Positions 9,458 through 40,432 of a stretch of 64,000 nt of DNA are shown piece by piece (positions within the stretch are counted from its first letter, which is position 1; each line of letters starts with the position of its first letter). The translations under genes and the position numbers were made by a program. The stretch is from the NCBI RefSeq assembly GCF_014643835.1, contig NZ_BMKD01000002.1, positions 124,001-188,000 of the forward strand, given 5' to 3'. The notes under the pieces were generated by a model that saw only the letters and a program-made list of their open reading frames with translations, did no database searches and was not told where the DNA came from. The DNA comes from Mucilaginibacter rubeus (GTDB lineage Bacteria > Bacteroidota > Bacteroidia > Sphingobacteriales > Sphingobacteriaceae).

Positions 9458-9460
9458 AAC

Positions 9461-10195: not shown

Positions 10196-10199
10196 CGTG

Positions 10200-14388: not shown

Positions 14389-14496
14389 TGTTATTTAAAG
14401 TTGGCTTATCTTTGTCAATTACACAACATAAATCAACAGAGCGGTGTTTTTAGTCAACGAGCAGGGTTGCGGGGCAACAAAAGATCAATTATGCTA

Positions 14497-15267: not shown

Positions 15268-15271
15268 GGTG

Positions 15272-16090: not shown

Positions 16091-16105
16091 GTTTTTTTTA
16101 GGCAA

Positions 16106-16432: not shown

Positions 16433-17260
16433 TTACGGCTGCTTTTTATTAACCGTCCACTCAGCCATCTGGAAGTCACGACTGCCATTATTAGTCTTAA
16501 TGCTTATCCTATAAAACTTATAAGCCACATTGTTATTAAAGTGATATAGGATGCGCTGAAAGCGGTTGGCAAAAACTTCGTTGTTCTTGCTGTGCAGGTT
16601 TATCCAGCGTATACCGTCCTCAGAACCCTGGAGGATCCATCCTTTCGGGTCACGGGTGGGCGAATCATTTGCAGATGTCATGGTATAGGCTCCTGCAACG
16701 GCAGGTGTTTTAAGCTCATATTTCATCACCAGGTCGCCGGAGAACCCCGATTGGAAAAACTTGGTATTCGGATCACCGTCAACCACTTTTAGTGACCCCT
16801 CGTTTGCATTTGGGCCGCCCCCATTGTCGCGTGATACAGTCAATGTACCGCCTATGGTAGCAAAGTAACTTTCACCAACCTTGGTGCGGTCAAAATTAGG
16901 GTCGGCAACGTTCAATATTATTTCCCGCGCAGCTGAATATCCCTGTGAATTTCTGGCCGTTAATGTTACGTGATATAAGCCATCAAAGGCATACCTATGC
17001 TTCGGTGCTTTTTCTGCCGACGTGCTATCGTCGCCGAATTGCCACAGGATATCTTTATAATTGATGGATGTACTGGTGAACTGATAGCTTAAAAAATCAA
17101 CGCTATCTGTTCGTGCCACTGTGAAACCTGCGATGGGTCTGGGCTCATCCGGTTCGGGTTGGGGCGCAGGCTTATCTTTTTTACACCCGGCAAACAACAG
17201 GGCTACTGTTGAAAATACCGAGATAATATGCAATATTTTTTTCATGTCCTTAATTTTCAT
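16433..17260 (-). CDS. PKD plus discoidin-like (F5/8 type C) lipoprotein
   Basis: Last gene of the eleven-gene operon; a 275-residue predicted surface lipoprotein. The lipobox LFAGC gives C26, followed by KKDK. A PKD domain (about 42-118) is shown by ILWQFGDDSTSAEKAPKHRY and GLYHVTLTARN. A C-terminal discoidin-like sandwich (about 130-272) contains GGTLTVSRDNGGGPNANEGS, VVDGDPNTKFF, GWILQGSEDGIRWINL and YRISIK. The latter module is clearly paralogous to the C-terminus of the fasciclin protein at 28711-29820. Such domains bind carbohydrate or protein, and no enzyme motif is present. A start at 17245 (MKKILHI) is also possible. It probably acts in ligand capture at the cell surface. Confidence 0.87.
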   Translation of the reverse strand: MKIKDMKKILHIISVFSTVALLFAGCKKDKPAPQPEPDEPRPIAGFTVARTDSVDFLSYQFTSTSINYKDILWQFGDDSTSAEKAPKHRYAFDGLYHVTLTARNSQGYSAAREIILNVADPNFDRTKVGESYFATIGGTLTVSRDNGGGPNANEGSLKVVDGDPNTKFFQSGFSGDLVMKYELKTPAVAGAYTMTSANDSPTRDPKGWILQGSEDGIRWINLHSKNNEVFANRFQRILYHFNNNVAYKFYRISIKTNNGSRDFQMAEWTVNKKQP

Positions 17261-17272
17261 TGATCAATTGGC

Positions 17273-18709
17273 TTAAGGGGCGGGGAATAATTGGCTTTGT
17301 GGTACTATTCTTCTGCCGTTGATGCCGGCCGATGGAACTTCAAAAGTTAAACGGGCGCGCTGGCCACCCACGTTTTCGCGATGATCTGCTTCTATTTTAT
17401 AGCGTTTACCGCGTTCCAAGAAAATTTTGGCAGTACGGCTATCCTTATCCCACTCGGTAGTGAAATCATTAATAATGGCCTTGCCGTCTATATATAATCT
17501 TGATCCGTCGTCCCATTCGTTCTGCCAGAACACGTATTCACCCCGAACGGGGGCAAGGAACTCGCCAGTCCACCTGGTGGAGAAATTATCATGACTTATA
17601 CCTGGTATAGCGGCTTGCCAAACCCCGTCATTAGGCCAATCAATAGTAGGTTCTATTTGTACAAGATCGGGCTTTCTGCCATCAAAATCAAGCAATTGAT
17701 TGTTTGAAAAGTATTCCGCTTTTAAGCCCGTTCCGTTTCCGGTTATGTAAGAGTTATTATCAAGATTAACCTCTGGCTGTACCAAAACGATCAACTTGCT
17801 TTTTGTTGGATGCAAGATGTGTTTTGACGGATTAACCAAACTCACCACAAAACCAAAACGTTTATTGGCAACTATATTGGCATCAAAAACAGGCCATCCT
17901 ATTGATAAGCGCACCACCGCTGTACTGGCGTTGGAATTTACCCTAATCAGGGTATCAATAGAAAATTGATCGGGGTTAAGTGCTATAGTGTTATCAGGCA
18001 GCACTTTTTTACTTACCAAAGTTGTAATGGTATCCATGTTTAATTTTACATGAACATTAAACGCGCCGGCCGGTACACCCGCCATGTTTATGGTTAATGG
18101 AATGGTGATACCTGCCGGTGATGTTGTATAGTTTTTTTGATAATCAACATCCATAATACCACCGCCATTCAAAAGCGACACATAATGAATATCACTTTCT
18201 TTAATAAACTTTTTGGTATCAAGCACCACCAGGATATTTGATTGCGACCCTTTGATTTGATTGCCCTTGCCGGGATCAGTAAGTTTAAATGCAAAAGCTA
18301 CGTTTTTACCATAATTAGCCTCAATGGCCGATAACCTGACGCTGGCAACGGCAGTGGCGGTATCTGACCCAAATGCTACGTTGATTACGCCGGGATAATC
18401 AATTGCACCCGCAGGTAATATTACAGTATTTTTAAGTGTACCATTTGCTATTAGTTTGGTTACCGTATCATTATTAAATGTTATACCAACCTGGAATGCT
18501 TTGGTTGCCGGTCCTGATAAGGATATTTTAAATGGAACTTTAACTATTTCGTTACCGGCAGTTGCATCACCAGTATTGGCTCCTGCGCCGGAAACGTTTC
18601 TGTCGGTGTTTTGAATTGGCTTCAGCTCATCAAGATCATTTTGCTTGCAGGCTCCCGCTATCAGGACAATTAACCCGATAAACAAGATATATCTGTATTT
18701 TTTCATCAT
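17273..18709 (-). CDS. DUF1735-like repeats plus PA14 domain lipoprotein
   Basis: A 478-residue predicted surface lipoprotein (lipobox IAGAC, C21). Two similar beta-sandwich repeats (about 55-165 and 190-310) each carry a VTKLIANG- or ITTLVSKK-type turn, an LPAGAIDYPG/LNPDQFSIDT strand and a closing LVVLDT/LIVLVQ strand. This is the pattern of the BT_3987-like/DUF1735 modules of SusD loci. A PA14 domain (about 325-475) shows GTGLKAEYFSNNQL, FSTRWTGEFLAPVRGEYVFW and DDGSRLYIDGKAI. PA14 is a known carbohydrate-binding insert in hydrolases and adhesins. No catalytic motif is visible. I chose the ATG at 18709; a TTG directly precedes it. Confidence 0.87.
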   Translation of the reverse strand: MMKKYRYILFIGLIVLIAGACKQNDLDELKPIQNTDRNVSGAGANTGDATAGNEIVKVPFKISLSGPATKAFQVGITFNNDTVTKLIANGTLKNTVILPAGAIDYPGVINVAFGSDTATAVASVRLSAIEANYGKNVAFAFKLTDPGKGNQIKGSQSNILVVLDTKKFIKESDIHYVSLLNGGGIMDVDYQKNYTTSPAGITIPLTINMAGVPAGAFNVHVKLNMDTITTLVSKKVLPDNTIALNPDQFSIDTLIRVNSNASTAVVRLSIGWPVFDANIVANKRFGFVVSLVNPSKHILHPTKSKLIVLVQPEVNLDNNSYITGNGTGLKAEYFSNNQLLDFDGRKPDLVQIEPTIDWPNDGVWQAAIPGISHDNFSTRWTGEFLAPVRGEYVFWQNEWDDGSRLYIDGKAIINDFTTEWDKDSRTAKIFLERGKRYKIEADHRENVGGQRARLTFEVPSAGINGRRIVPQSQLFPAP

Positions 18710-18739
18710 CAAATAATTTAGTTTATAATGGTTAGCTTT

Positions 18740-20440
18740 TTACTGGTCAAGCCAAACGCGGCCGTCAAGCCCCCAGGCCTGCCTGTTAGGTATTCTGAAC
18801 CAGTTTATTATTTGCGCCGGGATATCTGCCGTTTGCGGAACAAATATGGCCAGTGCCCCTGCCGGCGGCGGGCAGATCAGATCATTAAAATCTTCCCATT
18901 GATAAGGGCCTTTTAATTGAAAGTCGCGGGCCTGCGGGCCAATATCCCTGATCTTGTCGCCCTGGCCATCTGTGCCCGGCCAGTATGCTGCCAAAAAGGT
19001 ATAATAAGGATGACCTTCGCTAATGGATGTTTCGCAGGCATAATTTCCAATCACGGCATCGGGTACGTCGACCTTGAAAAATCTGATGTCGGTTACATAC
19101 ACATCAGGTGTACCATGCCCGTTACCGTTTAAATAGCCCAACTTCAACGGGCTGTGGTTGCTTAAACTTCCCGATGCGGTTATCTCCAATTCATTATTGA
19201 AAACCCCGTCGGTGTAGGTTCTGATATATCGCTTGCCTGCGCGTATCTCACATTTAACCGAAAGGTTTTGCCATCTGCCTTTTTGAAGGTCGCCGCCACG
19301 GCATTGATGATAATCACCATCCTTAGTGCCCCGGTATTCGAAATACCAGTAGGCGTCTTCGAGGTAAATTACCCAGCCAACTCCCGGGTGACCTGCTGAC
19401 CACTCCGGTCTTTTACCCAGGATACTTGGCCAAAAGAATTTATCCTCATTCTTCTTAACTTTTAGCTCGATGGTGAACTTGGTAGTATCATCGATGTTAA
19501 AGATATCAGCTGTATCTATCTCGGCTCTCACCCCCGTATCTTTCAAACGTACTGTGCGCCCCAAATACCTGTTGCCGGTAAATGGTTTACCTATTACTCT
19601 TTGTTTATATTTTGGATTGTAATAGATAGTAAATGTATTGGCGGCGGTGTTACTGAAAACTGTATTATCGTTCTCGTTAGCCGGGATATTAAATTTACCA
19701 CCACCGCTCGACGCAATCACTACCAGCCAATCTTCATTGGCATAATTTTTCCTTTTTTTCAGGGCATTAACAATCTCACCTACATAACCGTCAAATTTTT
19801 CGATAGAAGCTTTGTACTGCGACGATGAATTGTCGAATCCGTATTTGGCACCTGCTTCTTTAATATCATTAAAATGGCCAACTATCAATTGTGCCGTGTC
19901 GGTATTCAGGTCATTAACTACAGCCGTTTTAATTTGCTCATCAGTACTATACAACTCGCTTACTGCAGCACCCTGTGTTAACTTATTTTTAAAAATAGCC
20001 GAGGAAGAAAAAGAAACGATTTTGGCATTTGGTCTTTCTTCTTTTATCCTTTCAAAAAACACAGGATAAGTTGCCAGATTATTGCCGGCAAAATCATCCG
20101 ACAAGATCTTGTGCTTTTCTTTTTTTACGCCGGTTAGCATATTGGCCCAGTTGCTTACATCGCGGGTCGAGTCCGGATCGCTCAATGCAACCCAACTGTA
20201 AATTGAACTGGGCAGTAATGCTTTAATATTAGGCACATTGGCGCTATTTACTGATGAGCCCCGTGCCCCGTCAACAATCAGGTACAAAACCTTACGTTCG
20301 CCGGATGTTGCTTTGGCCGTGTCAGTATAATTTTTATCGGGCAGCGTGCGCACAAAATCCTTATTACATGATATTGTTGCGACAGCCAATGCACAAATAA
20401 TTGAAAAAATGATCTGTTTGTATTTTTTCCTGTTCTGCAT
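18740..20440 (-). CDS. Degenerate alkaline-phosphatase-superfamily plus LamG lipoprotein
   Basis: A 566-residue lipoprotein (lipobox TISC, C25). The N-terminal part follows the phosphodiesterase/alkaline-phosphatase fold: VLYLIVDGAR (D57) matches the first metal-ligand strand and NMLTGVKKEKHKI matches the segment after the nucleophile. The later metal-binding motifs are changed: where DxxGHxxG is expected the protein reads DIKEAGAKYG (192-201), and where SDHGG is expected it reads ASSGGG (243-248). It is probably not an active phosphatase. A LamG/concanavalin-like domain follows (about 293-462). The C-terminal PAQIINWFRIPNRQAWGLDG resembles the closing segment of the phosphatase fold, so LamG may be inserted. 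The tail may correspond to DUF4983 (from memory). Likely a binding protein. Confidence 0.8.
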   Translation of the reverse strand: MQNRKKYKQIIFSIICALAVATISCNKDFVRTLPDKNYTDTAKATSGERKVLYLIVDGARGSSVNSANVPNIKALLPSSIYSWVALSDPDSTRDVSNWANMLTGVKKEKHKILSDDFAGNNLATYPVFFERIKEERPNAKIVSFSSSAIFKNKLTQGAAVSELYSTDEQIKTAVVNDLNTDTAQLIVGHFNDIKEAGAKYGFDNSSSQYKASIEKFDGYVGEIVNALKKRKNYANEDWLVVIASSGGGKFNIPANENDNTVFSNTAANTFTIYYNPKYKQRVIGKPFTGNRYLGRTVRLKDTGVRAEIDTADIFNIDDTTKFTIELKVKKNEDKFFWPSILGKRPEWSAGHPGVGWVIYLEDAYWYFEYRGTKDGDYHQCRGGDLQKGRWQNLSVKCEIRAGKRYIRTYTDGVFNNELEITASGSLSNHSPLKLGYLNGNGHGTPDVYVTDIRFFKVDVPDAVIGNYACETSISEGHPYYTFLAAYWPGTDGQGDKIRDIGPQARDFQLKGPYQWEDFNDLICPPPAGALAIFVPQTADIPAQIINWFRIPNRQAWGLDGRVWLDQ

Positions 20441-20470
20441 TTCTTTATAGATTATAAGTTCAATTAAAAT

Positions 20471-22081
20471 TTATTCGATGGTAACGCGTATGATATTGCT
20501 AACCTGGGTATTATCAAAACGGTCAAAGCCACCAATCAGCAATAATGCCCGCTTACCATCAGTCGATTTGGTTTCAATAATATCAGACAATGTACCTGAA
20601 AATGGTCCGGTAGTATTGTAATTCCCGGCCAGTTCACCTTTGGTATTTAGTACCATGAAACCATTGCGGGTAACATTATTATACTTTTTAAAGCTGCCGC
20701 TAACTACTACCAGTCCATCATTAAGCTGGCGGGCAAAACCAGGATAGCCTCCCTCAAATGTTTTAGCTACGAAAGTTTGATCAAGACTACCATCCAGGTT
20801 AACCAGCGCCATGCTGACGGCCGGTTTACCATCGTATGTTCTGAAGATCCCTGTTATCAGGTATTTTTTGGTTACAGGGTTGTACGTTAAAGATGAGATG
20901 CTATTATCGGTACCTGTTCCGGTTTTAAATGAATCATCAATGGTGCCATTGGGGCTCAAACGAACCAGCCGCCCCGCTGTTTTTTGGTCAAACGTGGTAA
21001 AACTTCCAAACAGCACCAGTTTTTCCAGTTGATCAGCATCGGTATGCATGTACGAGTCAACAGGGCCATTTGCCGAAGGCAGGCCTTTGTTTGTCGCTAT
21101 GTTAAAACGATAGGTTTTGTCAAGTGTCCCATCCAGGTTAAAACGGGCTATTTGCCGGATCTCCGTACTGTCAAGAATCACCGTATCGCGGGTAAAATCA
21201 TGATTATGTTCAGTATAAACCCGTCTTACATAATATCTGAAACTCCCTGTTGCCAGTATTTTGTTCTGATGCTTGTATATTTTAGATATATAGTCGTTAG
21301 TACCGCCGTTAAACTTCGGAAAATATTTGGTTGTATCTGTTTGGGATGGGCGCCTGTAGGTTTTTACGCCAATGGTATCAATACTGCCATCAACATTTAA
21401 TGTGGTAATATTACTGATGTTTTCTGTGCGCTGATTGTAGCCGCTAAATCCTCCGGCTATCACATATTTTCCGCCGAGTTCTATTACTCTCGATAATAAT
21501 CCGTTTGCTGCCTTACCTGTCCGGAACGTGCGGTCAAATTCACCATCAGCCGATGTTCTTACAATGCGGTTAAGCGGGGTAATGATCCCTTTATTATCAT
21601 AATTGGTAAACCAACCCAGCACCAGGTTCCGGCCATCGGCAAGAGGATACACCTGGTTTACATTGCCATTTGCTCCGGCAGTTGCCCGGAAAGAAGGATC
21701 GATATTAATTAATCCGGATACCTTAAATAGCGGCCCAAGTACTAACTGATCGTCAATTGCTATTGACGTAATACCTGTGCTGCCAAATGGCGGAACTTTT
21801 ACCTTAATAGTTGATTCTGTTACCTCGGTAACCTGACCGGGTTCGCCATTAAACATGAACTTTATTTTGCCTTTATAAGGAATAAGTCCGGTGGCTTTGA
21901 ATGTTACCTCGGTACCCACCGTCCCATTTGCCGGTGCAGGTATTGCGTCACGGCTAAGGATGACGCCCAACGGCGGCTTTCCTTCCCCATAGGGGTCAGA
22001 ATAAACTGTTTTATCCTTTTTGCAAGCTGCAATTATGAGCACCAGCAGGATAAACGTGATGATATAGTTAAATCTTCTCAT
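20471..22081 (-). CDS. IPT/TIG domain plus delta-60-type beta-propeller lipoprotein
   Basis: A 536-residue predicted surface lipoprotein with lipobox IIAAC (C20) followed by KKDK. An IPT/TIG immunoglobulin-like domain (about 40-125) shows ANGTVGTEVTFKATGLIPYK and ESTIKVKVPPFGSTG. The rest (about 130-536) is made of repeats of the type VRTSADGEFDRTFRTG, FNLDGTLDKTYRFN, LSPNGTIDDSFKTGTG and VNLDGSLDQTFVAK, which are delta-60-like blades of a beta-propeller. Family annotation in related genomes may be DUF5008 (from memory). No catalytic residues can be named. The ATG at 22081 is preferred over a TTG at 22087. It sits mid-operon, 35 bases after the fasciclin gene. Confidence 0.85.
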   Translation of the reverse strand: MRRFNYIITFILLVLIIAACKKDKTVYSDPYGEGKPPLGVILSRDAIPAPANGTVGTEVTFKATGLIPYKGKIKFMFNGEPGQVTEVTESTIKVKVPPFGSTGITSIAIDDQLVLGPLFKVSGLINIDPSFRATAGANGNVNQVYPLADGRNLVLGWFTNYDNKGIITPLNRIVRTSADGEFDRTFRTGKAANGLLSRVIELGGKYVIAGGFSGYNQRTENISNITTLNVDGSIDTIGVKTYRRPSQTDTTKYFPKFNGGTNDYISKIYKHQNKILATGSFRYYVRRVYTEHNHDFTRDTVILDSTEIRQIARFNLDGTLDKTYRFNIATNKGLPSANGPVDSYMHTDADQLEKLVLFGSFTTFDQKTAGRLVRLSPNGTIDDSFKTGTGTDNSISSLTYNPVTKKYLITGIFRTYDGKPAVSMALVNLDGSLDQTFVAKTFEGGYPGFARQLNDGLVVVSGSFKKYNNVTRNGFMVLNTKGELAGNYNTTGPFSGTLSDIIETKSTDGKRALLLIGGFDRFDNTQVSNIIRVTIE

Positions 22082-22122
22082 ATTCAATTTATTATCATTG
22101 AAAGAATATTATTAATAATGTT

Positions 22123-22857
22123 TTACTCAGAATGGTGAAGGCCTGCAAAGTATATTTCCTCATAAAAGTCGTACCGGTTAAACCCGAAATAGGCTCCGTC
22201 ATATTGCAGGGTATGTACTATCCCGTTCGTAGGTTTGATATCAGACGACGAAACCTTATTCCCGAAAACCACGTTTTGCGCATTATTGATGTCATAGATA
22301 TAACTGATTACCAATGTACGCGAACCAATGTATTTGATGTTATTCGCGTCGTCATATATCACACCAATGTTCACCACATCGCCGCTGTATGAATAATAAA
22401 GCGCTCCGGGATACTGATTTTGCAGGTTAAAATCTATTTGCGGATAATCTTTAAGCCGGTTGATCCCCTTGAACATATACCGTTGCAGATATTTTTTCCA
22501 TATGGCAGAGTCGATGTCCGACAGCTTTTTCACGGTATCACGGCCGGCCTCGTACAAAAATTGATTTAAAGAGCCCCTGGTTTTGTAGTCACCTATCGTT
22601 CTTTTTATAACATCATCGTCTGGTGCAAAAAAGGTAAAATCACTTTTACGGAATGTTTCTTCCATACCGGCCAGTTTTACGATCTGGGCAATGGTATCAA
22701 ACGGTACTGCTTTATCCTGCAGGTATTGAAGCATATCGGCAGGGTAATCGGCCTTAGCTTTACCTCCGTCTTTATAATACTCATCGCGTTTACAACCGGT
22801 AAGCACCAGTAAAAACCCGGCAAAAACAATAATTATATTTTTCATATTTCTTATCAT
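22123..22857 (-). CDS. Fasciclin-domain lipoprotein
   Basis: A 244-residue lipoprotein (lipobox LTGC, C22, followed by KRDE) with one fasciclin-type domain. The H1-like motif is TFFAPDDDVIKRTI (about residues 75-88). The domain closes with IKPTNGIVHTLQYD (about 205-220), the typical NGxxHxI end box. Fasciclin domains mediate adhesion in eukaryotes and in bacteria occur in surface proteins of SusC/SusD loci. An internal ATG at 22845 is an equally good start. It follows susD by 17 bases. The role is presumably ligand presentation to the SusC/SusD pair upstream; that is inference. Confidence 0.87.
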   Translation of the reverse strand: MIRNMKNIIIVFAGFLLVLTGCKRDEYYKDGGKAKADYPADMLQYLQDKAVPFDTIAQIVKLAGMEETFRKSDFTFFAPDDDVIKRTIGDYKTRGSLNQFLYEAGRDTVKKLSDIDSAIWKKYLQRYMFKGINRLKDYPQIDFNLQNQYPGALYYSYSGDVVNIGVIYDDANNIKYIGSRTLVISYIYDINNAQNVVFGNKVSSSDIKPTNGIVHTLQYDGAYFGFNRYDFYEEIYFAGLHHSE

Positions 22858-22874
22858 TACTTTTTAGGAATAGG

Positions 22875-24398
22875 TTAATTACCTCCGTTAACCCAGTACA
22901 TGTTTAATGACATAAATGGGTTATTGGCCAACGCGTTACTACTAATTGGCCATGTCCAGGCACCACGGTTAAATTTGTCCAGCGTCAATACGTTATATGA
23001 CCACTCACTGTTCATAATCCTGCGGGTACGCACCAGGTCAAAGTAATGGTGCCCCTCGCCCATCAGTTCCCGCGATCTCTCCAGGAAAATAAAATCCTTA
23101 AGGTCTTGTCCGCCGCCACCGGTATAGCGCGAAGCTTCGGCCCTGTCCCTCACTTTATTCAGCAGGGCAATAGCCTGGTCATCCTGACCAAGTTCGGCCA
23201 GTGCTTCTGCGCAGAGCAGTATTTCACCGGCATATCTGAATATCATAAAGGTGTTGTCAGGATTGGCGTCCTCTTCGCCGGTTGCAAATGAATTTTGAGC
23301 AAATTTGAGCATCATGAACTTTCCGTTATCGGCGTAGATGTCTGAATTAAACCAGGTTGTAGCGCGCTTGTCAGCCGTACCTGAATATAGTTTTTGCATA
23401 TACTCGGCCCTGAAATAGGCGAAGCTTATACGGTGCGTATATTCCGGCCTTTTATATGGATAATGCAGAAACATATCGCCAATAGGGGCAACATTGGTGT
23501 TTTGATCGCCATAGTTTATACTGCGATAAAACTCAAACAAACTCTCGTCCGACCGGCCTTTGATAACCGTGGCCCATTCATTGATGGGTAACAGCCTGTA
23601 AGCATTGCTCTTAATCAATTCCTGCCCAAGGTCTGCAGTCTCCTGGTAGTACTTGGTTGCATTGGGTTTGTCGAAACCAGCATTCCACATGTTCATGTTC
23701 ATGATAAGCGCGATAACGCTGCCCCTGCTTGCACGTACCCCTTTTAAAGCCGGGTCAGAATAAGTCCAAGGCAAACCGTCCTTATATTTTTTAAGGTCGG
23801 CGATGCTTTTGTTTAAAACAGATACCATGTTTTCGCGCGGTAAAGCTGTTGAATGGTAAGCATCGGTATAATAAGGAACGTCGCCATAAAGCCTTACCAT
23901 AAAGAAGTATGCAAGCCCGCGTATAAAAGCCGCTTCGCCCTCAAACTGTTTTTTTTCGCTGTCTGATACGCCAGGCACACCTGCTTCCAGTTTCGAGATG
24001 AGGATGTTGGCACTTTGTATTACCTGGTAATAACCTGTCCAATCGGTGATGCGATAAAAATTGTAAAAATTCCAGGGCGGATTTCCGTTGATAAGCCCAA
24101 GCAGGTCATTCCGGCCTAACACCTCTACATATGCTCGTGCGGGCCCGTTATCTGCCTGAGGTTCAGATAAAACCTCTCCCGAACGGTATTCGCCCGTAGC
24201 ACCAATAAAATGCGTTTCATTGATCTTGCCAAAAAATGTTCTTGACATATCATAAATATTGGCCACAACGTCATCTTTCGATTGGTAAAAGTTATTCCCT
24301 GTTAGTTTATCAATGGGTTGTACGTTCAGAAACTTTTTACAGGCTGGTAAACACAAGCTTGCTGCCGCTGCTAAAATGTATATAACACTTTTTTTCAT
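22875..24398 (-). CDS. SusD/RagB-family outer-membrane lipoprotein (second pair)
   Basis: A 507-residue surface lipoprotein that forms the lid of the SusC transporter encoded just upstream. The lipobox is LPAC (C20), followed by KKFLNVQPIDKLTGNNFYQS, the standard SusD opening. The TPR-like helical core shows EGEAAFIRGLAYFFMVRLYGDVPYY (in the 160s), and the C-terminal SusD region has ILLCAEALAELGQDDQAIALLNKVRDRA (residues in the 410s) and ERSRELMGEGHHYFDLVRTR. It ends with the WP...NPFM segment typical of the family. The ligand is not predictable from sequence. Spacing to susC is 11 bases. Confidence 0.95.
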   Translation of the reverse strand: MKKSVIYILAAAASLCLPACKKFLNVQPIDKLTGNNFYQSKDDVVANIYDMSRTFFGKINETHFIGATGEYRSGEVLSEPQADNGPARAYVEVLGRNDLLGLINGNPPWNFYNFYRITDWTGYYQVIQSANILISKLEAGVPGVSDSEKKQFEGEAAFIRGLAYFFMVRLYGDVPYYTDAYHSTALPRENMVSVLNKSIADLKKYKDGLPWTYSDPALKGVRASRGSVIALIMNMNMWNAGFDKPNATKYYQETADLGQELIKSNAYRLLPINEWATVIKGRSDESLFEFYRSINYGDQNTNVAPIGDMFLHYPYKRPEYTHRISFAYFRAEYMQKLYSGTADKRATTWFNSDIYADNGKFMMLKFAQNSFATGEEDANPDNTFMIFRYAGEILLCAEALAELGQDDQAIALLNKVRDRAEASRYTGGGGQDLKDFIFLERSRELMGEGHHYFDLVRTRRIMNSEWSYNVLTLDKFNRGAWTWPISSNALANNPFMSLNMYWVNGGN

Positions 24399-24409
24399 GA
24401 TCTTGAGTT

Positions 24410-27400: not shown

Positions 27401-27556
27401 GCCCATATAGATATTTACACCGGGTAAAATTTTATTGGTAGCTTTTTCAACTACCGTACCGGTAACCGTTATATTTTGTGCTTGTGCATGAACATCTGCA
27501 CAGAATAAGATCGTGCAAACAGCAAGCACTATATAAAATAGTATGTGTTTTCTCAT
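24410..27556 (-). CDS. SusC/RagA-family TonB-linked outer-membrane protein (second pair)
   Basis: A 1048-residue TonB-dependent transporter. A signal peptide (ends near DVHAQA) precedes a carboxypeptidase-regulatory-like domain (about 28-110, ITVTGTVVEKATNKILPGVN). A plug domain follows (about 125-255) with LLQGKVAGLNVQNNTGAPG, YIIDGVPLD and IMKDAQATSMYGSRGAYGVI, the SusC signatures. A 22-strand-type beta-barrel then ends in TYNLGLNIELNTSK. It would import a bulky ligand captured by the adjacent SusD protein using TonB energy. The length is normal. Its ligand is unknown, because the operon lacks recognisable glycoside hydrolases, proteases or lyases. Confidence 0.96.
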   Translation of the reverse strand: MRKHILFYIVLAVCTILFCADVHAQAQNITVTGTVVEKATNKILPGVNIYMGSKGLIQTDYKGKFTVSVPANSTLTFTFVGFVTEKVKLEPGQKNITVTLTEDKKGLNEVIIVAYQNRNKESSPGAAVTLTQKDIQDVPASNVENLLQGKVAGLNVQNNTGAPGFRGSVQVRGLSALSVSGSGSESFLQPTSPLYIIDGVPLDADKAAEFGFQTQGPGVSPLSLIPVEDIQSIQIMKDAQATSMYGSRGAYGVIIITTKRGNSKVPRVRYTGNFFVNAVPQLRATLGGNSERRAKIQQILSNATIIDELRKLGQTGFLADSLNAYWNNSTNWQSIFYGTTHNQSHNVALDGGNDRFNYKVNMGLYSEKGVIKNTGFDRYNLNMNMEFKPNDKFRFFGSLFGSLGSQAKGNGVGLLQQGVASNGQASTLLPPPSFYLSPDGVTSALQTQNSNSTRNIRTNIDGRYEFIPGLALSSSISYDYTSDAESTFTPAAANAQFAQVYDYEGRNFTLYNRNALTYAKTFSADHTIFINTFNEIYKQGGQSGIIRQNRIPNDQLQGPVGSDPYNSRGGGVLSNFKNATIASFAGSFNYDYKKKYVLELSYRLDGTSSNGLENPYSKNPAAGFRWNYYKENWFKNWDWLTSGGLRLTWGQNIVPTGSLQSIYGLYNLNGNFNNNPTIGINYEFVPNPALKPTTTTQYNLGFDMTILQGKVDLTFDTYYKKVDNLLFDRLLPNSTGFQKKSSNDVSIADYGYELMVTVRPLTAKDFNWTVSFNGAINRDYLLRLPAEYNGQYIKFDYNNYQHIVFRVGKNTLSNYLLINQGVYSTDGDVPVDPVTGKKYQTGGLAFKGGDPRFKDVNGDYILDDRDYEITGNSQPLITGGISTNINYKNFGLNIYASYTAKRTILNNALSDRLSIMKDPYALLAAVPLDDLDIWRKPGDQSKYPNPYAFSRFNQIKPLRSDQNLWQEEGSYLKINTVTLSYMFDKKFVRRFGFNNVRVYFSTNNLITFSGYNGPNPENVTSLGRDISSGYPVPRTYNLGLNIELNTSK

Positions 27557-27576
27557 GGTGATAAGTTTTAATTCGG

Positions 27577-28707
27577 TTATTCGTCTTCAAACTTTGGATT
27601 GTCCTTCAAAAAATGGAACACTATCTCCCAGTCGCCTTTTTTGTATATAGCGAAATCTATCCCGAAGCTTGCCACTACCCTACTGCCGCCAAAACCAATT
27701 CGCGAATATTTAAATTCGGCATGGTCCCTGGTTCCTCCTGGGGCATATACAGTTGGTATTTCCACTAAAGGAATAGGATAGGCAACATCGTATTGTACAT
27801 ATGTTGCAGTTTTTTGCATGTTAAAGCCATGTACTATTTTATCCCAGGTAGTTTCGTTAAACAGGGCCGGATTCATCTCTACTGAGTCTTTGTTCAGAAA
27901 CTTGAACCTTAACGAATTTCCCGTACCGCCGGTAAACGGACGGATATAAACCACCACATCCTTTTTTTCGTCATTACTCTGCAGCGGAATGTCGGTTACC
28001 TGGCCTATTACCCCGTTTAAAAATGGCCTGAGGTAGTTTCGGCTGGCCGGATTATAAGGCGTTTTGGGATGAGGCGCAGGCAGGCCGGAGTAAATGTTAA
28101 AGTCGTCAGAAGGTTCATAAGGGCGCTCGCGGAAAGGGCGTACCTGCAGGTCGCGAATTATAGTACTGCCACCCGTGTTGGTTATCTTTATGTCAAAATA
28201 GCGCGTATCCTGCGGAAAATTGGTACTATCAGACGGCCTGGGCTTGATCAGCTCATTATTGGAAGAAGCCCACATAATAAACTCGCCCGATGAGCGCACT
28301 TCAAATAAGGGGTGATCTTCCAGCTTGCGTTTTGCCTCTATCTCGGCCAGGCTCTTTTCAAGCCCGTTATAGGGCGCTGTCCATACATAGGTTGGTCTTT
28401 TTTGAAAAAGATCTGTAACAGGCTTACCGTCGCCAAAACGCGCGTTGATGATCTCAAACTTTAACGGCTGGGTTGAGTTATCTCCATTAAACCCGCCCAT
28501 CAAAGTGGTTCGGCCTAAAATCGGTTCAAAAACTTTATTGCTGTAGTTTACATTCGAACTCAGATAATCTTTTTCATCGGGAATGCCATACATCTTCTTG
28601 CAACTACTGAACGCGACTGCAGCAAATAGTAGAGCTACAGATCCCATTTTTATGAATGTTTGCATCTCTTTTCGTTTTTTTAATGTATTGATATTTTGAT
28701 CTTCCAT
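27577..28707 (-). CDS. SusC/D-locus lipoprotein, DUF5007-like
   Basis: A 376-residue lipoprotein with lipobox FSSC followed by KKMYGIPDEKDYLS. The body is beta-rich with no motif I can tie to an enzyme. It includes paired strands such as RYFDIKITNTGGSTIIRDLQ and KDVVVYIRPFTGGTG and a closing KGDWEIVFHFLKDNPKF. From memory it resembles DUF5007, a family found only beside SusC/SusD genes; this is not verified. The annotated start is three bases after the upstream gene's stop; an internal ATG at 28665 would give a cleaner signal peptide. It lies between the two SusC/SusD sets and is presumably a surface accessory binding protein. Confidence 0.7.
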   Translation of the reverse strand: MEDQNINTLKKRKEMQTFIKMGSVALLFAAVAFSSCKKMYGIPDEKDYLSSNVNYSNKVFEPILGRTTLMGGFNGDNSTQPLKFEIINARFGDGKPVTDLFQKRPTYVWTAPYNGLEKSLAEIEAKRKLEDHPLFEVRSSGEFIMWASSNNELIKPRPSDSTNFPQDTRYFDIKITNTGGSTIIRDLQVRPFRERPYEPSDDFNIYSGLPAPHPKTPYNPASRNYLRPFLNGVIGQVTDIPLQSNDEKKDVVVYIRPFTGGTGNSLRFKFLNKDSVEMNPALFNETTWDKIVHGFNMQKTATYVQYDVAYPIPLVEIPTVYAPGGTRDHAEFKYSRIGFGGSRVVASFGIDFAIYKKGDWEIVFHFLKDNPKFEDE

Positions 28708-28710
28708 GCC

Positions 28711-29820
28711 TTATTTTACTTTATTGATGGTCCATTCGGCCAGTTGGAAAAGGCCCCCGTCACGCAGCTCGGAAATATCCACCCGGTAGAACTTATAAGC
28801 GGTGGTGTTAGGGCACCTGAAAACTTTGGTCTGGTATCGTTCTTCGAAGAAGAAGTTACTCCGGCGATCTAACTCCGTCCAGGTTTTGCCGTCATTTGAG
28901 CCTTCATAAGTCCAGGCCCTGGGGTCGCGTTCAGGTGCATCATTGGCAGATGTGAGCGTATACACCCCTGATACGGCAGGCTCATTTAGCTCAAACTGCA
29001 TCCATAACCGTCCCTGAAGTTCGGCCAGGAACTTGGTGTGATCATCGCCGTCAATTACTTTTTTAGAGCCTTCGCCATTATCCGGACCGCCATTGTTATC
29101 TCTCAAAACGGTAAGCTTGCCACCTATCAGGGTCATTAGGTTTGGCGGTGGCGGAACAAAGGTTAATCGGGATACAAATTCATCAAAACCGAAAATGTGA
29201 TCGGGACTTACCACATGAACAATACCATTTTTGGTGCTGATATTATTGGAGCCGGTAGTAGTGGTTGACCAGTTTCTGATAAACTTGCTGCGTTTGGTAT
29301 TGCTAAACTCTATAAGATCCGGGCCGCCACCGGTAAGGCCGGAAGCTGATATTTTGGAAACCTTGCCATGCATAGGATATCCGAAACGTACGCTGAAAAG
29401 ATCAAGCCCGTCCTGCAGCAGCAGGGAATCAGTTGTACGTTTACCCCTGATAATATAATATGAAACCATGGTGTCCAACTGCACGCCATCAATTTTTGCC
29501 AAAAACAGCGGATCTTTGTCGCTTTGCCTTCTTAATGTATTCAGGTTATTAATTGCCAGCTGAAAACTTGGATTAGTAACCGCAAAAAGGGTAACATTGC
29601 TGTCCATGAGCGTTTGCTGAAGTCCCATCCGGTTGACTACCGCCAATAATGAATCATATACACCGGGTTTGCTTTTTAAATACTCATAAGTATTACCCGC
29701 AAATTTTGAGTTGGTGCCTGTAGCGTCATGGTAGCCGCCATCCTTTTTGCAGGCAGTTTGCAACAGGGCTGCAATCAACACCGGCGTTAAGGCACTCATA
29801 TATTTTTTTAACTTTTTCAT
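28711..29820 (-). CDS. Fasciclin plus discoidin-like domain lipoprotein
   Basis: A 369-residue lipoprotein (lipobox QTAC, C24, then KKDGG). The fasciclin domain (about 40-218) shows YLKSKPGVYDSLLAVVNRMG, TLFAVTNPSFQLAI and NGIVHVVSPDHIFGF. After a proline-rich hinge (FVPPPPN) comes a discoidin-like module (about 232-368) with GGKLTVLRDNNGGPDNGEGS, VIDGDDHTKFL, YEGSNDGKTWTEL and FYRVDIS. This module is paralogous to the one in the last gene of the operon (16433-17260), so one ligand type is probably bound at both ends of the system. It is 11 bases from the SusD gene upstream. No enzyme motif is present. Confidence 0.88.
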   Translation of the reverse strand: MKKLKKYMSALTPVLIAALLQTACKKDGGYHDATGTNSKFAGNTYEYLKSKPGVYDSLLAVVNRMGLQQTLMDSNVTLFAVTNPSFQLAINNLNTLRRQSDKDPLFLAKIDGVQLDTMVSYYIIRGKRTTDSLLLQDGLDLFSVRFGYPMHGKVSKISASGLTGGGPDLIEFSNTKRSKFIRNWSTTTTGSNNISTKNGIVHVVSPDHIFGFDEFVSRLTFVPPPPNLMTLIGGKLTVLRDNNGGPDNGEGSKKVIDGDDHTKFLAELQGRLWMQFELNEPAVSGVYTLTSANDAPERDPRAWTYEGSNDGKTWTELDRRSNFFFEERYQTKVFRCPNTTAYKFYRVDISELRDGGLFQLAEWTINKVK

Positions 29821-29831
29821 ATATGGTCAGT

Positions 29832-31373
29832 TTATTTCCAGAATGGGTTTTGGGTTAACAGATTGTTTTGAGCGATGAGCTTACGCGAAACAGGCCAGTA
29901 TATCCCCTGCGAATTGATGAGTTTCATGAATGCCGGGTTGTTTTGCTTGATTTTATTATAGCGTACCAGGTCATACCAGCGATGTCCCTCTCCCATCAAT
30001 TCGCGATGGCGCTCCTTAAATATCAAATCAATAATGTCCTGGTCGCTGTCTATCGTAAGATCTCCCATCCCCCGGCGGGTCATGATATTAAAAACTTCAT
30101 TTTCGGCCCCGTTCACATCCCCTAAAACAGCCAATGCCTCGGCCCGGAGTAATACGATATCCTCTATCCTTGTAAAGATCAAAGCACTGGTGAAGTATCG
30201 GAAGTTAGGATCAGAAACGCCCCCCAGTATCACTTTTATTTTGCTAAAAATGGGGTACTTGCCATTGATATTGGTGAAGTATCTTTCGGTACGGGGCTGA
30301 CCAAGCGTATCTATACTAAAGCGCTCATCCTTGGGCATGTCAAATATTTTCAGGATAGTATCCTTAGGCATGTAGATATCCGGCACTTTTTTATTCACCA
30401 CAGGTTCGGCCAGGGTTAACTCTTCCAGGTGGCCTGTTACCGATCCGTCAATATGGCCCCAGTCAGAGTTAAAACCAAACATCTGGCTGGTGTTTTTATT
30501 GAAAAAGAACCCGTTTGATTTGGTCAGATCTTCTGTGCTTTGAAAATTGATGCCGCTTTTACCATAATTATCTTCAACAAACTTGGTATAGGTAGCTACA
30601 TCGGTATAGTTACCTTGCCAGGCAGCCAAATGAGCCAGGACCGCATAGGCTGAGTTCTTCGTGGCTAAAGCACCTCCCCAGCGGGTAGCATCTTCATTAT
30701 AATAATTGCCGGGCTGCTGCACATCGTTGTTACTGTATACAAACGGCAGGTCGGCTGCGGCCTTAAGCATTTCCTGCTGCGCCCATACTAATATTTTGCT
30801 GCCACTTTCGCGGGGTTGATTTTCAAACTTGCCATCGTGGGATGAGGTAATGAATGGTACATCTCCCCAAATCCTTACCATATAGAAATAGGTAAAGGCC
30901 CTTAAAAAACGTACCTGGGCAACATCAACTATCAAATAGTTTTCTGTATAGCGCTTATCGGCAGCTTTTACATCGCCAATACGTTCAAGGAAGATATTCG
31001 CAGCATTAATTATGGCGTAAAATCTTGTCCAGTCGCTCAAGGCCTCAACAGTTGGATATGAGGCGTTGAGCTGATTACTTGCAATTGCTTTCAGGTCCTG
31101 CCGGTTCGGACTAATAAATTCGCCTGTACGTACATCGCCATAAAGCCAGTGACCATCGTTGTCAGATAAGGCTGCTCGGGTAAGTGCATACACTCCTAAT
31201 AAGCCTGCACGTGCATCTTCAAGCTTATTCCACATGTTTTTTTCGCCCACAACCCTTGTTGAATCAATATCCAGGGTTTTATTACAGCTTGTTATTGCCG
31301 CAGTAAACAGGATCAGGACGATACATAATGTCTTTTTCATTTTTACAACATGATTTTTGTGATCGTTTTTCAT
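29832..31373 (-). CDS. SusD/RagB-family outer-membrane lipoprotein (first pair)
   Basis: A 513-residue lipoprotein, partner of the SusC-like protein just upstream. The lipobox is AITSC followed by NKTLDIDSTRVVGEKNMW. The helical SusD core shows YLIVDVAQVRFLRAFTYFYM and VRIWGDVPFI. The C-terminal part has IVLLRAEALAVLGDVNGAEN, FKERHRELMGEGHRWYDLVR and a final LTQNPFWK. The reading start at 31373 lies one base after the susC stop (TGATATGA), which suggests coupling; an ATG at 31340 (MKKTLC) would give a more typical signal peptide and may be the true start. Ligand unknown. Confidence 0.94.
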   Translation of the reverse strand: MKNDHKNHVVKMKKTLCIVLILFTAAITSCNKTLDIDSTRVVGEKNMWNKLEDARAGLLGVYALTRAALSDNDGHWLYGDVRTGEFISPNRQDLKAIASNQLNASYPTVEALSDWTRFYAIINAANIFLERIGDVKAADKRYTENYLIVDVAQVRFLRAFTYFYMVRIWGDVPFITSSHDGKFENQPRESGSKILVWAQQEMLKAAADLPFVYSNNDVQQPGNYYNEDATRWGGALATKNSAYAVLAHLAAWQGNYTDVATYTKFVEDNYGKSGINFQSTEDLTKSNGFFFNKNTSQMFGFNSDWGHIDGSVTGHLEELTLAEPVVNKKVPDIYMPKDTILKIFDMPKDERFSIDTLGQPRTERYFTNINGKYPIFSKIKVILGGVSDPNFRYFTSALIFTRIEDIVLLRAEALAVLGDVNGAENEVFNIMTRRGMGDLTIDSDQDIIDLIFKERHRELMGEGHRWYDLVRYNKIKQNNPAFMKLINSQGIYWPVSRKLIAQNNLLTQNPFWK

Positions 31374-31374
31374 A

Positions 31375-34300
31375 TCATAATTCCATTTTTACACCCAGGG
31401 TATATGTTCGTGGTATAGGCAGGCCGTAACCGGTATCATAGCCATCATAATTCACCAATTCAGGGTCCTGACCGGTATAAGGGGTTATGGTGAACACATT
31501 ATTTGCCGTGGCATATACATAAAACCTGGTTAGCTTGATTTTCTTTAAGCGCATTGCTTTGGTTAGGTCATACCCAATGGAAACGGTTCTTAATTTCAGG
31601 AATGAAGCATTTTCAAGAAAAAGGTCCTGATCAACGCGATATGGGATAACGGTACTCCATGGGTTATACAATTGATATTTGTTGTAGTCGCCTCGTTTTT
31701 CCCAGAAGGTGATCTCCTTAACAGAGTTTACATCGCTGTTACCTTCCCGGTTAATAAAATCAAAGCGGTTGGCCATTTCCTGGTGTATAAGGTCGCGCCC
31801 CAGGTTGAAATAGAGATTGACATTTAAATTCCAGTTGCCATATCTGAAATTATTATCATATCCACCTGAAATTTTTGGTAAAGCATGTCCCTTTAATACT
31901 TTATCGTTATTATCAATTACGTTGTCGCCATTGATATCACGCCATCTGGGATCGCCGGCATGCAGGGCGAGGCCATTGTACTTAAGTGGCTGCCCATTTA
32001 CAACTGGTATTTCGCTTTCCGATTTATAAATGCCATCATTTACCAGTAACCAATACTGATCAACCGGGCTGCCTACTTTTAAAAGCCTGTCGTTAACAAT
32101 GATTTGATTTAAGCCCCTTGGCAATGCTTTGAGCTTATTGGCATTATGATTTAAATTCAGGGAAGATGTCCATCCAAATTTTGTATTTCGGATGATATTG
32201 GCAGATACAGATACATCTATACCGGTATTGTTTACAGCCATACCGCTCTCAATCGACTGCTTATACCCATACTCCGCAAAAGCGGGAATACCTATCAGCA
32301 AATTCTTTTCCTGTTTCAGGTACCAATCAACCGAAAGGTGCAAACGGTTATTAAGAAAACCGGCATCTGCGCCTATATTAAGCTGATTAGAATATGACCA
32401 TGGTATGCCATAACCTATCCAACCGGTAGAGTAAGGCCTGGTAAGCACACCAAAAGCGTTATAGCCAGGCACGGTTAAGTTACCAGTATACCCTACCGAT
32501 GCTGTATACTGAGGCCCCTGTGCATAGTTGTCAAAGGCATTAAGACGACCGATCCTCCCTGCGCTTGCACGCAAAATAAGGTCGTTTATAATAGTGCTAT
32601 TATCTAATACCTCCTTCTTAATGTTCCAGGCTGCAGATAATACCGGCGAATAGAACCACCGGCTGGTAGGCTGAGCGTTTGATGATCCATCTGCGCGTAC
32701 TGTTGCCGAGAGGAAGTATTTTTCTTTGAATGAATAATCGGTCTTGGCATAAAACGAAACCAGGTTATGCTTGATCTTATCCAGAAAACGGAATGTTAAC
32801 TCGCGTGGAAAGGCTGTTGGGTTGAGATAATTATCGTTGTCAGATCCGTCTGGGTTTTTTGGGTTCGAATCCAGCAGATCTATCTTAATATAGTCATTTA
32901 CACCTTTGTAGGCATAGGCGTTGCTATATTTATAAATGTCCCATTGGGTTGATTGACCAAGCTCAAAATGGAAATCGTTTACTTTATTTACTGTCAGATC
33001 ATAGGTTGCCCTGTTATCTGCCATTATCCTTTGGCTAAAGCCAAAATAATTGGAAGCATAGCTGTTGCCCTGCAAAAGCGTGCGCGCATAAAACACATCG
33101 CGGTAGCCTTCATTATAATCTAAATTGAAGGTGGTTACGAATTTAAATTTTCCGAGATCGATACCTATTTTGGCATAGCCGTCAACAATATTTGTTTTGT
33201 TGTTATCGAAGCCTTTTTTGTACTGCGCCAGGTAGTCGGCATAAAATTCTTTGTTTGGTGGTAGCGGGGCGCTGAGATCTGGAAAATAGTTGATCTGGGC
33301 AAATCTGTCGCGTAGATATCTGTTTCGTTGCCGCTCAATCCGGTTGGCGTTTACCATAGCCGAAAAAAGAAGCCATTTGATAGGTTTCATATTAATGTTG
33401 AACATGGCGCTATATCGGTTTAGCACTGTTCCATCAGCAACACCATTATTCTTCAGATCCCCCAATGAGAAACGGAAGTTAGCACGATCTGTACCCCCGG
33501 AAATACCGAAGTTAATACCATAAACTGCAGCATTACGATAGTAAAGATCGCTCCAGTCTGATTTCCCGCTATAAACATTGTTTAATGAATCGCTTAGGTA
33601 GATGGGATAGTTCTCATCATCAGAGTATCTGCCATTGGTAGTATAAAGGTCGTAAAAACGCTGTCTGAAAGCATTTTCATACTTACCGTTTATAGTGGTT
33701 ACATGCGGCCGCTGTGCCAAACCTATATACGAATCAAAAGTGATGCTTTTGGCAGCGATAGGAGTTTTAGAGGTTAATACAATAACTCCATTAACAGCGC
33801 GGGGCCCATAAACCGCCGTGGCCGACAGATCTTTTAACACTTCAACCGAGGCTATATTATTCATATCAATACCAGCAAATGGGTTGGTGGCTGTTCCCAT
33901 CCTGTTATAGTTATATAGCTGTATATCATATGCAAACGGGTGTTCTGTTACAAGCGGAATACCATCCAGTACAACCAGTGGCTGCGATTGGTAAACATCT
34001 CTTGGAGAAAGAAGCGGCATGGGCGCCCCTCTCATAAACATATTTTGAACGGTACCGGGTTCGCCCGAAGGTTCCTGTATATACAGCCCTGCAAATTGCC
34101 CTTTTAACAATTGCTGCAGGGAAACAGCCGGGAATTTGGATAGATCATAAGGCTTTTTGGTAACACTATCTGCCAGCTTATTATAAAGGGTATGCTTTAT
34201 AATAATATTTATGCTGTCTTTTAATAATGAATCTTTTGCCGTTGTATCCTTACGGATATAGGTTTTATAAAAAACAGAACGTTTTACTTTGCTTTTTTTA

Positions 34301-34383
34301 CCCTCATTCCCCTTAGCTAAGCCTGTAAGTGCATTTGTGGTTATTGCTGCGAAAACCACAAAGCACAGCCATAAGTATCGCAT
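31375..34383 (-). CDS. SusC/RagA-like TonB-linked protein lacking the N-terminal regulatory domain (first pair)
   Basis: First gene of the operon, 1002 residues. A signal peptide (about 1-24) is followed by a short charged linker (KNEGKKSKVKRSVFYK) and then, from about residue 80, directly by the plug: LQQLLKGQFAGLYIQEPSGE, PLVVLDGIPL and VEVLKDLSATAVYGPRAVNG. The carboxypeptidase-regulatory-like domain that normally precedes the plug is missing. The beta-barrel ends in PIPRTYTLGVKMEL as usual. It pairs with the SusD protein immediately downstream. The transporter of the second pair, at 24410-27556, has the normal architecture, so the two may couple to TonB or to lipoproteins differently. A likely promoter box lies about 160 bases upstream. 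Confidence 0.93.
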   Translation of the reverse strand: MRYLWLCFVVFAAITTNALTGLAKGNEGKKSKVKRSVFYKTYIRKDTTAKDSLLKDSINIIIKHTLYNKLADSVTKKPYDLSKFPAVSLQQLLKGQFAGLYIQEPSGEPGTVQNMFMRGAPMPLLSPRDVYQSQPLVVLDGIPLVTEHPFAYDIQLYNYNRMGTATNPFAGIDMNNIASVEVLKDLSATAVYGPRAVNGVIVLTSKTPIAAKSITFDSYIGLAQRPHVTTINGKYENAFRQRFYDLYTTNGRYSDDENYPIYLSDSLNNVYSGKSDWSDLYYRNAAVYGINFGISGGTDRANFRFSLGDLKNNGVADGTVLNRYSAMFNINMKPIKWLLFSAMVNANRIERQRNRYLRDRFAQINYFPDLSAPLPPNKEFYADYLAQYKKGFDNNKTNIVDGYAKIGIDLGKFKFVTTFNLDYNEGYRDVFYARTLLQGNSYASNYFGFSQRIMADNRATYDLTVNKVNDFHFELGQSTQWDIYKYSNAYAYKGVNDYIKIDLLDSNPKNPDGSDNDNYLNPTAFPRELTFRFLDKIKHNLVSFYAKTDYSFKEKYFLSATVRADGSSNAQPTSRWFYSPVLSAAWNIKKEVLDNSTIINDLILRASAGRIGRLNAFDNYAQGPQYTASVGYTGNLTVPGYNAFGVLTRPYSTGWIGYGIPWSYSNQLNIGADAGFLNNRLHLSVDWYLKQEKNLLIGIPAFAEYGYKQSIESGMAVNNTGIDVSVSANIIRNTKFGWTSSLNLNHNANKLKALPRGLNQIIVNDRLLKVGSPVDQYWLLVNDGIYKSESEIPVVNGQPLKYNGLALHAGDPRWRDINGDNVIDNNDKVLKGHALPKISGGYDNNFRYGNWNLNVNLYFNLGRDLIHQEMANRFDFINREGNSDVNSVKEITFWEKRGDYNKYQLYNPWSTVIPYRVDQDLFLENASFLKLRTVSIGYDLTKAMRLKKIKLTRFYVYATANNVFTITPYTGQDPELVNYDGYDTGYGLPIPRTYTLGVKMEL

Positions 34384-36243: not shown

Positions 36244-36251
36244 AAATAATG

Positions 36252-36821: not shown

Positions 36822-36847
36822 ATCTTATAATTTCGGGTTACAATTTA

Positions 36848-39064: not shown

Positions 39065-39100
39065 AAATTTGTATTCTATGTTAAATTACTACTGCGTCAA

Positions 39101-40168: not shown

Positions 40169-40230
40169 CTGCTAATTGTATTACGAAGTATGATAATTGC
40201 CGGTTTCACTAAGCCGGATTAGATTTTCAC

Positions 40231-40238
40231 CAAAAATA
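40231..40238 (-). promoter_or_regulatory. -7 box of the oxidoreductase operon
   Basis: On the minus strand TATTTTTG matches the Bacteroidota -7 consensus TAnnTTTG in every fixed position and lies about 63 bases upstream of the NarI-like gene. No clear -33 TTG and no FNR-type palindrome (TTGATnnnnATCAA) is seen in the 264-base divergent region. Confidence 0.45.
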
Positions 40239-40432
40239 TACAGCTATTTCTGATGCGGGTTTTCCTGGTTTCTGTTTGTTATTATAATATGCCGTGGCTA
40301 TTATAAAACATTTAAAAATACAAAAAAAACAGGTTCTTGTATCGGTTTTAATTACATTAGACTATATTCTTCAATAATTACCTTTTATTAATGCCTCTTT
40401 ATCTCCTGTTATCATAAACTTATTACGAAAAT

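Follow-up and report, generated by a model that had tools for sequence, protein, structure and literature searches.

In a 64,000-nucleotide stretch of Mucilaginibacter rubeus DNA (contig NZ_BMKD01000002.1, positions 124,001 to 188,000; hereafter the window), eleven open reading frames (ORFs) on the minus strand at 16433-34383 form an operon with two pairs of SusC/SusD (SusCD) uptake proteins and seven further predicted lipoproteins. The operon is genuine, conserved to a high degree, and an unusual variant of a familiar type of nutrient-uptake locus; the enzyme with which its sister operons cut was either lost or never present. We read it as akin to polysaccharide utilization loci (PULs) and RagAB and as serving glycan or glycopeptide capture, with the window's type as an enzyme-free branch. 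More specifically, we favor, with about even confidence, a PUL-type uptake locus whose cargo is peptide-linked glycan or glycoprotein fragments, be they plant arabinogalactan-protein-like or from other O-glycoproteins. SusCD loci are usually interpreted through their enzymes, and no recognizable active enzyme is encoded here, so that the substrate cannot be guessed in this way.

The genes are separated by gaps of 1-35 bases and transcribed in the order SusC1, SusD1, fasciclin+F5/8-C, DUF5007, SusC2, SusD2, fasciclin, DUF5008(IPT/TIG)+propeller, Phosphodiest+DUF4983, PA14, PKD+F5/8-C. All eleven proteins were scanned against Pfam and ten against NCBIfam (SusC1 left out). A first-pass annotation of the window had described eleven minus-strand genes with just these gaps and two complete SusCD pairs, and both descriptions hold: the ORFs lie as listed below, and Pfam and NCBIfam give two SusC and two SusD proteins. 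Its two fasciclin, two discoidin-like, PA14, PKD, IPT/propeller, and degenerate-phosphatase modules were likewise recovered (one F5/8-C domain below cut-off), whereas for its DUF1735-like module no gene gave a DUF1735 match; gene 8 encodes a DUF5007 protein.

34384..34775, minus strand: operon leader, containing a 16-codon ORF (34716-34766) and a predicted RNA fold
31375..34383, minus strand: gene 11, SusC1 TonB-dependent transporter (Pfam Plug 2e-13 as sole match)
29832..31373, minus strand: gene 10, SusD1 lipoprotein (SusD_RagB 2e-17, SusD-like_3 1.6e-10)
28711..29820, minus strand: gene 9, fasciclin and F5/8-C (discoidin-like) lipoprotein (Fasciclin 6.2e-06, F5_F8_type_C 1.4e-06)
27577..28707, minus strand: gene 8, DUF5007 lipoprotein (PF16398, 216 bits)
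24410..27556, minus strand: gene 7, SusC2 with a CarbopepD_reg_2 N-terminal domain (TIGR04056 1.5e-197, 659 bits; Plug 1e-18)
22875..24398, minus strand: gene 6, SusD2 lipoprotein (SusD_RagB 7.3e-26)
22123..22857, minus strand: gene 5, fasciclin lipoprotein (Fasciclin 7.4e-06)
20471..22087, minus strand: gene 4, DUF5008 (IPT/TIG-like) and DUF5122 beta-propeller lipoprotein (DUF5008 2.4e-13, DUF5122 3.3e-25)
18740..20440, minus strand: gene 3, degenerate lipoprotein of the alkaline-phosphatase superfamily (NPP/sulfatase fold) with a C-terminal DUF4983
17273..18712, minus strand: gene 2, PA14 lipoprotein (PA14 4.8e-15; 6qdi 1.5e-27), in the place of the sister type's M60 peptidase
16433..17260, minus strand: gene 1, PKD and F5/8-C lipoprotein (PKD_4 3.2e-11; F5_F8_type_C 2e-04, below cut-off)

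Nine non-SusC products begin with a hydrophobic stretch followed by C, then K/N, then K/R/Q, a lipoprotein-like arrangement when read by eye, and the seven that are not SusD proteins are probably exposed at the cell surface. The putative N-terminal Ig-like domain of the DUF5007 protein most closely resembles the SusE-like glycan-binding protein BT4661. SusC2 carries a CarboxypepD_reg N-terminal domain, and none is detectable in SusC1.

The first nine genes form a conserved cassette. A scan of 84,980 species genomes with two DUF5007 peptide patterns returned 81 relatives, 80 of which were kept and represent 79 distinct loci across Mucilaginibacter, Pedobacter, Sphingobacterium, Niabella, Chitinophaga, and Sunxiuqinia (three families of Bacteroidota); since these patterns seeded the scan, loci without a close DUF5007 protein could not show up in it. 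The cassette (SusC1-SusD1-fasciclin-DUF5007-SusC2-SusD2-fasciclin-DUF5008/propeller-phosphatase-fold) is complete and in order at 77 of the 79 loci, and the remaining two (L085 and L101) run into contig ends. Given that the loci were fetched via DUF5007 alone, this shared order of nine genes is more than chance, and the conservation of gene order in relatives, which the first-pass annotation had named as a check on its proposal, is thereby established. A SusC1 ORF is present at every locus, split in L109; this and another Niabella locus, L102, keep the cassette order with several ORFs split, be it through pseudogenization or assembly error. Mucilaginibacter gossypii, the nearest genome compared, has operon proteins 97-99.7% identical to those of the window and the same upstream neighbors.

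Co-occurrence counts agree with this picture. Among 251 genomes of the same family, DUF5007 was found in 111 and DUF5008 in 99, and the same 99 genomes carry DUF5008 and a strong DUF5007 match (E < 1e-40), the other 12 DUF5007 matches being weak. Outside the family DUF5007 is rare, with 5/392 genomes in a draw across the phylum (four of these genomes belong to that very family, and two of the five matches are weak) and 3/392 in a draw of Bacteroidales (one strong, in Sunxiuqinia, which was used as centre, and two weak).

Both SusCD sets seem to share the history of the cassette. In a tree of 27 SusC1 and 27 SusC2 proteins (from 26 loci chosen for diversity plus the window) with seven other rows, the SusC1 proteins fall into one group and the SusC2 proteins into another, with support of 100 and 93 in the Shimodaira-Hasegawa-like approximate likelihood-ratio test (SH-aLRT); one row, single_G023_5, is no SusC match and sits on a very long branch, which leaves this split unaffected. 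Operons of two tail types, called M60 and PA14 after the gene that follows the cassette, separate from each other within SusC1 (SH-aLRT 99 and 95) and again within SusC2 (99 and 99), indicating that the cassette travels as one unit including both SusCD sets. Across 75 loci (L085, L101, L102, and L109 left out), the protein distances of the nine cassette genes show correlations of 0.94-0.99, values that, for want of a control gene, partly reflect shared ancestry.

The two types differ in what follows the phosphatase-fold gene, which is a PA14 gene at 58 of the 79 loci, an M60 peptidase gene at 17, an unassigned ORF at two (the fragmented Niabella loci), and a contig end at two. The window, with its PA14 and PKD/F5-8 proteins, does not belong to the M60 type, in which an M60 peptidase and a second phosphatase-fold gene form the tail. 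We sampled 40 downstream regions, 20 chosen for a high DUF5007 score and 20 from the lower-score class. M60 follows in 18/20 of the former (as two ORFs in L147; L160 and L165 deviate), in each of these 18 regions with a second phosphatase-fold gene behind it, and PA14 is present in 20/20 of the latter, with a PKD homolog in 17. The HExxH...E motif is kept in 29 of 34 M60-matching ORFs, some of which are partial or lie outside operons. Both tail types coexist in the genome of Mucilaginibacter gossypiicola (G018; L011-L012 and L017-L018), which offers a natural within-strain comparison.

Gene 3 has the fold of the alkaline phosphatase / nucleotide pyrophosphatase-phosphodiesterase (NPP) / sulfatase superfamily and matches Pfam Phosphodiest with 43.8 bits against a cut-off of 23. 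Its catalytic site was compared at six columns (the Thr/Ser nucleophile plus the metal-ligand positions Asp, D...H, and DH, without the third His near the C terminus) with those of six predicted superfamily members from M. gossypii and M. gossypiicola. While five of these six references keep all six residues and the sixth (L226) keeps two, gene 3 retains one (D57), with D94, K194, A198, S245, and G246 in the other columns. An active NPP or alkaline phosphatase hydrolase is therefore rejected on this comparison despite the clear fold and Pfam match. In the second phosphatase-fold copies at M60-type loci (L118, L120, L121, L123, L125, L129, L130, L132, L134, and L136), the His of the DHG motif is kept in 7/10 and its Asp in 0/10 cases, a pattern of decay that is different from that of the first copy.

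No CAZyme (carbohydrate-active enzyme), sulfatase, or peptidase was found to be encoded in the operon by the Pfam and NCBIfam scans at cut-off, bar the non-intact Phosphodiest domain of gene 3. We do not take the PA14 protein for a xylosidase, as its match to NF041776 covers the PA14 part only and reaches 42 bits against a cut-off of 1250, nor gene 4 for a radical-SAM maturase on its marginal match to such a model (E 0.007, 15 bits against a cut-off of 425). Among solved structures, the main matches of gene 4 are designed trefoils, a kinship that we take for chance, and sequence comparison gave no useful relative for the DUF5007 protein or gene 3. A scan of the neighboring genes for hybrid two-component system (HTCS), SusR, and extracytoplasmic function (ECF) sigma/anti-sigma regulators found none adjoining the operon, which is flanked upstream by a cluster of Rieske, 4Fe-4S, and molybdopterin genes, with SLAC1 running divergently, and downstream by two CPBP genes and then a LytTR/histidine-kinase pair. 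The first-pass annotation was therefore right in seeing neither a recognizable degradative enzyme, as the two enzyme-family matches (NF041776 and Phosphodiest) reveal none, nor an adjacent regulator, as the neighbors are redox enzymes and CPBP proteins; and an intact hydrolase site in a member, which it had named as counterevidence, was not found by comparison. Adjacent susC and susD homologs as in a PUL are present in two pairs, and the enzymes of a PUL are missing from the eleven genes, so that we file the locus as a PUL-type SusCD uptake operon and not as a canonical PUL.

Enzyme genes do occur next to relatives of the operon. We counted as tail genes those that follow an operon 3' in the same direction with gaps of up to 450 bases in the 40 downstream regions. 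Among PA14-type tails (23/25 proteins scanned), these include GtaA (seven), GH43 (three), GH95 and GH92 (two each), and GH78 (one); for M60-type tails (31/40 proteins scanned), the matches listed, covering 25/35 families, include two each of GH84, GH29, and PL8 and one each of GH2, GH35, GH27, and FecR. In addition, a GH29 gene lies 5' of the operon in L098 and L103, and at the M60-type locus of Sunxiuqinia the second phosphatase copy is followed by an HTCS-like gene that the region's end truncates. Being so varied and lacking a background rate, the tail enzymes lend loose support to glycoconjugate nutrient uptake and name no single substrate. Four single-unit relatives (G317, G588, G722, and G325) share with the window a run of SusC-SusD-(fasciclin)-DUF5007-like genes, with fasciclin matched in three relatives, weakly so in two, but differ from it in having one SusCD pair per run and a weak DUF5007 (E 6e-4 to 2e-7); near them lies a GH127, GH95, GH63-like, or dipeptidyl peptidase IV (DPP IV) gene.

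These glycosidases, together with the putative SusE-like domain of the DUF5007 protein, also fit an ordinary oligosaccharide PUL with CAZymes encoded elsewhere, in which both SusCD pairs would import glycan oligosaccharides such as arabinogalactan side chains and peptides would play no role. The response to arabinogalactan of BT0268, a gene of Bacteroides thetaiotaomicron to which we return below, as told in PMC6874557 and PMC5061871, would suit this account too. However, only one enzyme, a peptidase, returns in a constant position (17/79 loci), while the glycosidases differ between loci, and we regard a plain glycan importer as a possible but clearly less probable alternative.

The same peptidase bears on the idea of an adhesion apparatus, whose binding modules would attach cells to the surfaces of plants or fungi, with transport playing a secondary part. 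Seven binding-type lipoproteins and an operon in which no active enzyme was recognized would suit such an apparatus, yet 77/79 loci retain both SusCD pairs in full, and a peptidase takes the place of the PA14/PKD tail in the sister type. An M60 gene at this position in sister operons and the glycosidases or HTCS-like gene in relatives point to nutrient uptake instead of adhesion, which we consider improbable. Of the capture or adhesion apparatus put forward in the first-pass annotation, one conserved multi-gene unit devoid of a recognizable active degradative enzyme is supported, but the adhesion part is not, given the M60 peptidase of sister operons.

SusCD systems can import peptides, as RagAB does, and without a CAZyme in the operon one may also think of a RagAB-type importer of a peptide, siderophore, or other small molecule that has nothing to do with glycans. 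The usual ligands of F5/8-C, PA14, and SusE-like modules are glycans, though, and the glycosidases and HTCS-like gene of relatives do not fit such an importer, which makes it an unlikely candidate. A siderophore role is further disfavored by the same-named B. thetaiotaomicron genes (BT0269-BT0275 and BT0277-BT0279), listed as lowered, weakly, under iron depletion in PMC10434189 (P 0.007-0.18).

For the uptake of peptide-linked glycans or glycoprotein fragments, we count the 77/79 intact cassettes, the joint occurrence of DUF5007 and DUF5008, the parallel SusC splits, the recurrent M60 gene, the tail enzymes, the HTCS-like gene at one M60-type locus, the putative SusE-like domain of the DUF5007 protein, and, as described below, the product names in B. 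thetaiotaomicron and the M60 genes of other PULs. Mechanistically, the fasciclin, F5/8-C, PA14, Ig/SusE-like, and propeller lipoproteins would hold the substrate at the cell surface, with the dead phosphatase of gene 3 serving as a binding or scaffold module, and the two SusCD pairs may use TonB to import two different products, or product sizes, of one substrate. The peptidase of M60-type operons would trim a glycoprotein at the surface; for the window's type, the fragments taken up may instead be freed by other organisms or by enzymes whose genes lie elsewhere. A stronger form of this proposal, an enzyme-free twin-SusCD machine in which the dead phosphatase is a shared substrate-binding or gating subunit of one surface complex that imports intact glycopeptides freed by others, is a more speculative option that we put forward tentatively.

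Several observations weigh against a glycoconjugate cargo. The window's operon has neither M60 nor a glycosidase, so that the glycopeptide would be carried over by analogy from the sister type, and the PA14 type is the commoner of the two. A search of the M. gossypii genome gave no M60 match, meaning that any cutting there would be the work of other enzymes or organisms. At 9 of the 40 sampled loci there is no tail gene at all; where there are some, their enzyme families vary from locus to locus, and some encode no glycan enzyme (MFS and luciferase-like genes among PA14-type tails; two genes of a FAD oxidoreductase family and one for CstA among M60-type tails). The surface location of the lipoproteins is predicted from lipobox-like N-termini alone, and the tie to an arabinogalactan PUL of B. 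thetaiotaomicron is one of product names.

Upstream of SusC1, the leader holds a short ORF, MKNxIYLYxxxxxxxx*, that is found in seven of nine aligned Mucilaginibacter leaders (L048 keeps the start with an altered frame, and L037 lacks it), a terminator-like hairpin, and a predicted fold with double changes at 10 of 79 pairs (seven sequences, without a control). A pattern search of 38 genomes located the start of this ORF once each in G001, G014, and G018, always 5' of this operon, plus one match with two mismatches in G040; it is thus apparently no general SusC leader. An Rfam search of the leader gave no match up to E 0.1. The leader is a candidate attenuation leader, and regulation by it may be envisaged from its sequence features.

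Elsewhere in the window, the Rieske, 4Fe-4S, and molybdopterin oxidoreductase genes at 35707-41509, together with a 355-amino-acid gene without Pfam match and the divergent SLAC1 gene, resemble a respiratory redox cluster that, among ten loci compared, is shared by M. gossypii only. At 12590-16105, tandem CPBP (Rce1-like) genes lie beside a LytTR response regulator and His_kinase pair, all on the same strand. A DNA polymerase III alpha-type gene, an impB/mucB-family gene, and a 253-amino-acid gene without Pfam match at 4767-10222 resemble what we take to be an ImuA-ImuB-DnaE2 mutagenesis cassette.

Two tail types on one fixed cassette provide a ready comparison for asking why there are two SusCD pairs and what a surface pseudophosphatase does. 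If glycopeptides are indeed the cargo, SusCD import would extend from glycans and peptides to their conjugates. Among known systems, RagAB of Porphyromonas gingivalis presumably resembles the window's operon in SusCD-type import with no glycosidase encoded alongside and differs from it, as we assume, in its single SusCD pair and the lack of an accessory lipoprotein set. Our survey of open-licence literature found no account of a DUF5007/DUF5008/fasciclin twin-SusCD operon, which does not exclude one elsewhere. We also sought a Bacteroides copy of the cassette: an M60 search of 326 Bacteroidales genomes, 29 of them with a match, guided the choice of Bacteroidaceae centres, and the two tried, with families of three genomes and one, gave no match. 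One B. thetaiotaomicron gene, BT0277, presumably encodes an M60 peptidase.

Still, the first-pass annotation's view of this operon as the window's best candidate for an undescribed system was too strong. A table in PMC10434189 lists B. thetaiotaomicron BT0269-BT0275 as SusD, hypothetical, DUF5007, SusD, and DUF5124 and BT0277-BT0279 as carbohydrate-binding, alkaline-phosphatase-family, and hypothetical proteins. Preceding them are BT0267, the HTCS of PUL5, and BT0268, the arabinogalactan-responsive susC of the same locus (PMC6874557; for BT0268 also PMC5061871; for general background on arabinogalactan PULs see PMC7533333 and PMC8406133). Compared by names only, PUL5 shares with the window two SusD proteins, a DUF5007 protein, and an alkaline-phosphatase-family protein, whereas the window lacks an adjacent HTCS and DUF5124. 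This likeness to product names in one paper suggests that the arabinogalactan PUL BT0268-BT0279 is a relative of the operon, which is hence not wholly undescribed. The M60 type also has counterparts among PULs: 15/16 M60 genes of Bacteroides caccae lie in PULs (PMC13355702), and B. thetaiotaomicron has the O-glycoprotein PUL BT4240-50 with BT4244-M60L and the PUL BT3013/BT3015 with M60 and no CAZymes (PMC11992087). As far as the accessible part of the latter paper goes, its main text names no fasciclin protein and no twin SusCD or pseudophosphatase is seen there, and the window's type differs from these PULs in having no M60; the sister type, by contrast, resembles them in pairing SusCD with an M60 peptidase aimed at O-glycoproteins.

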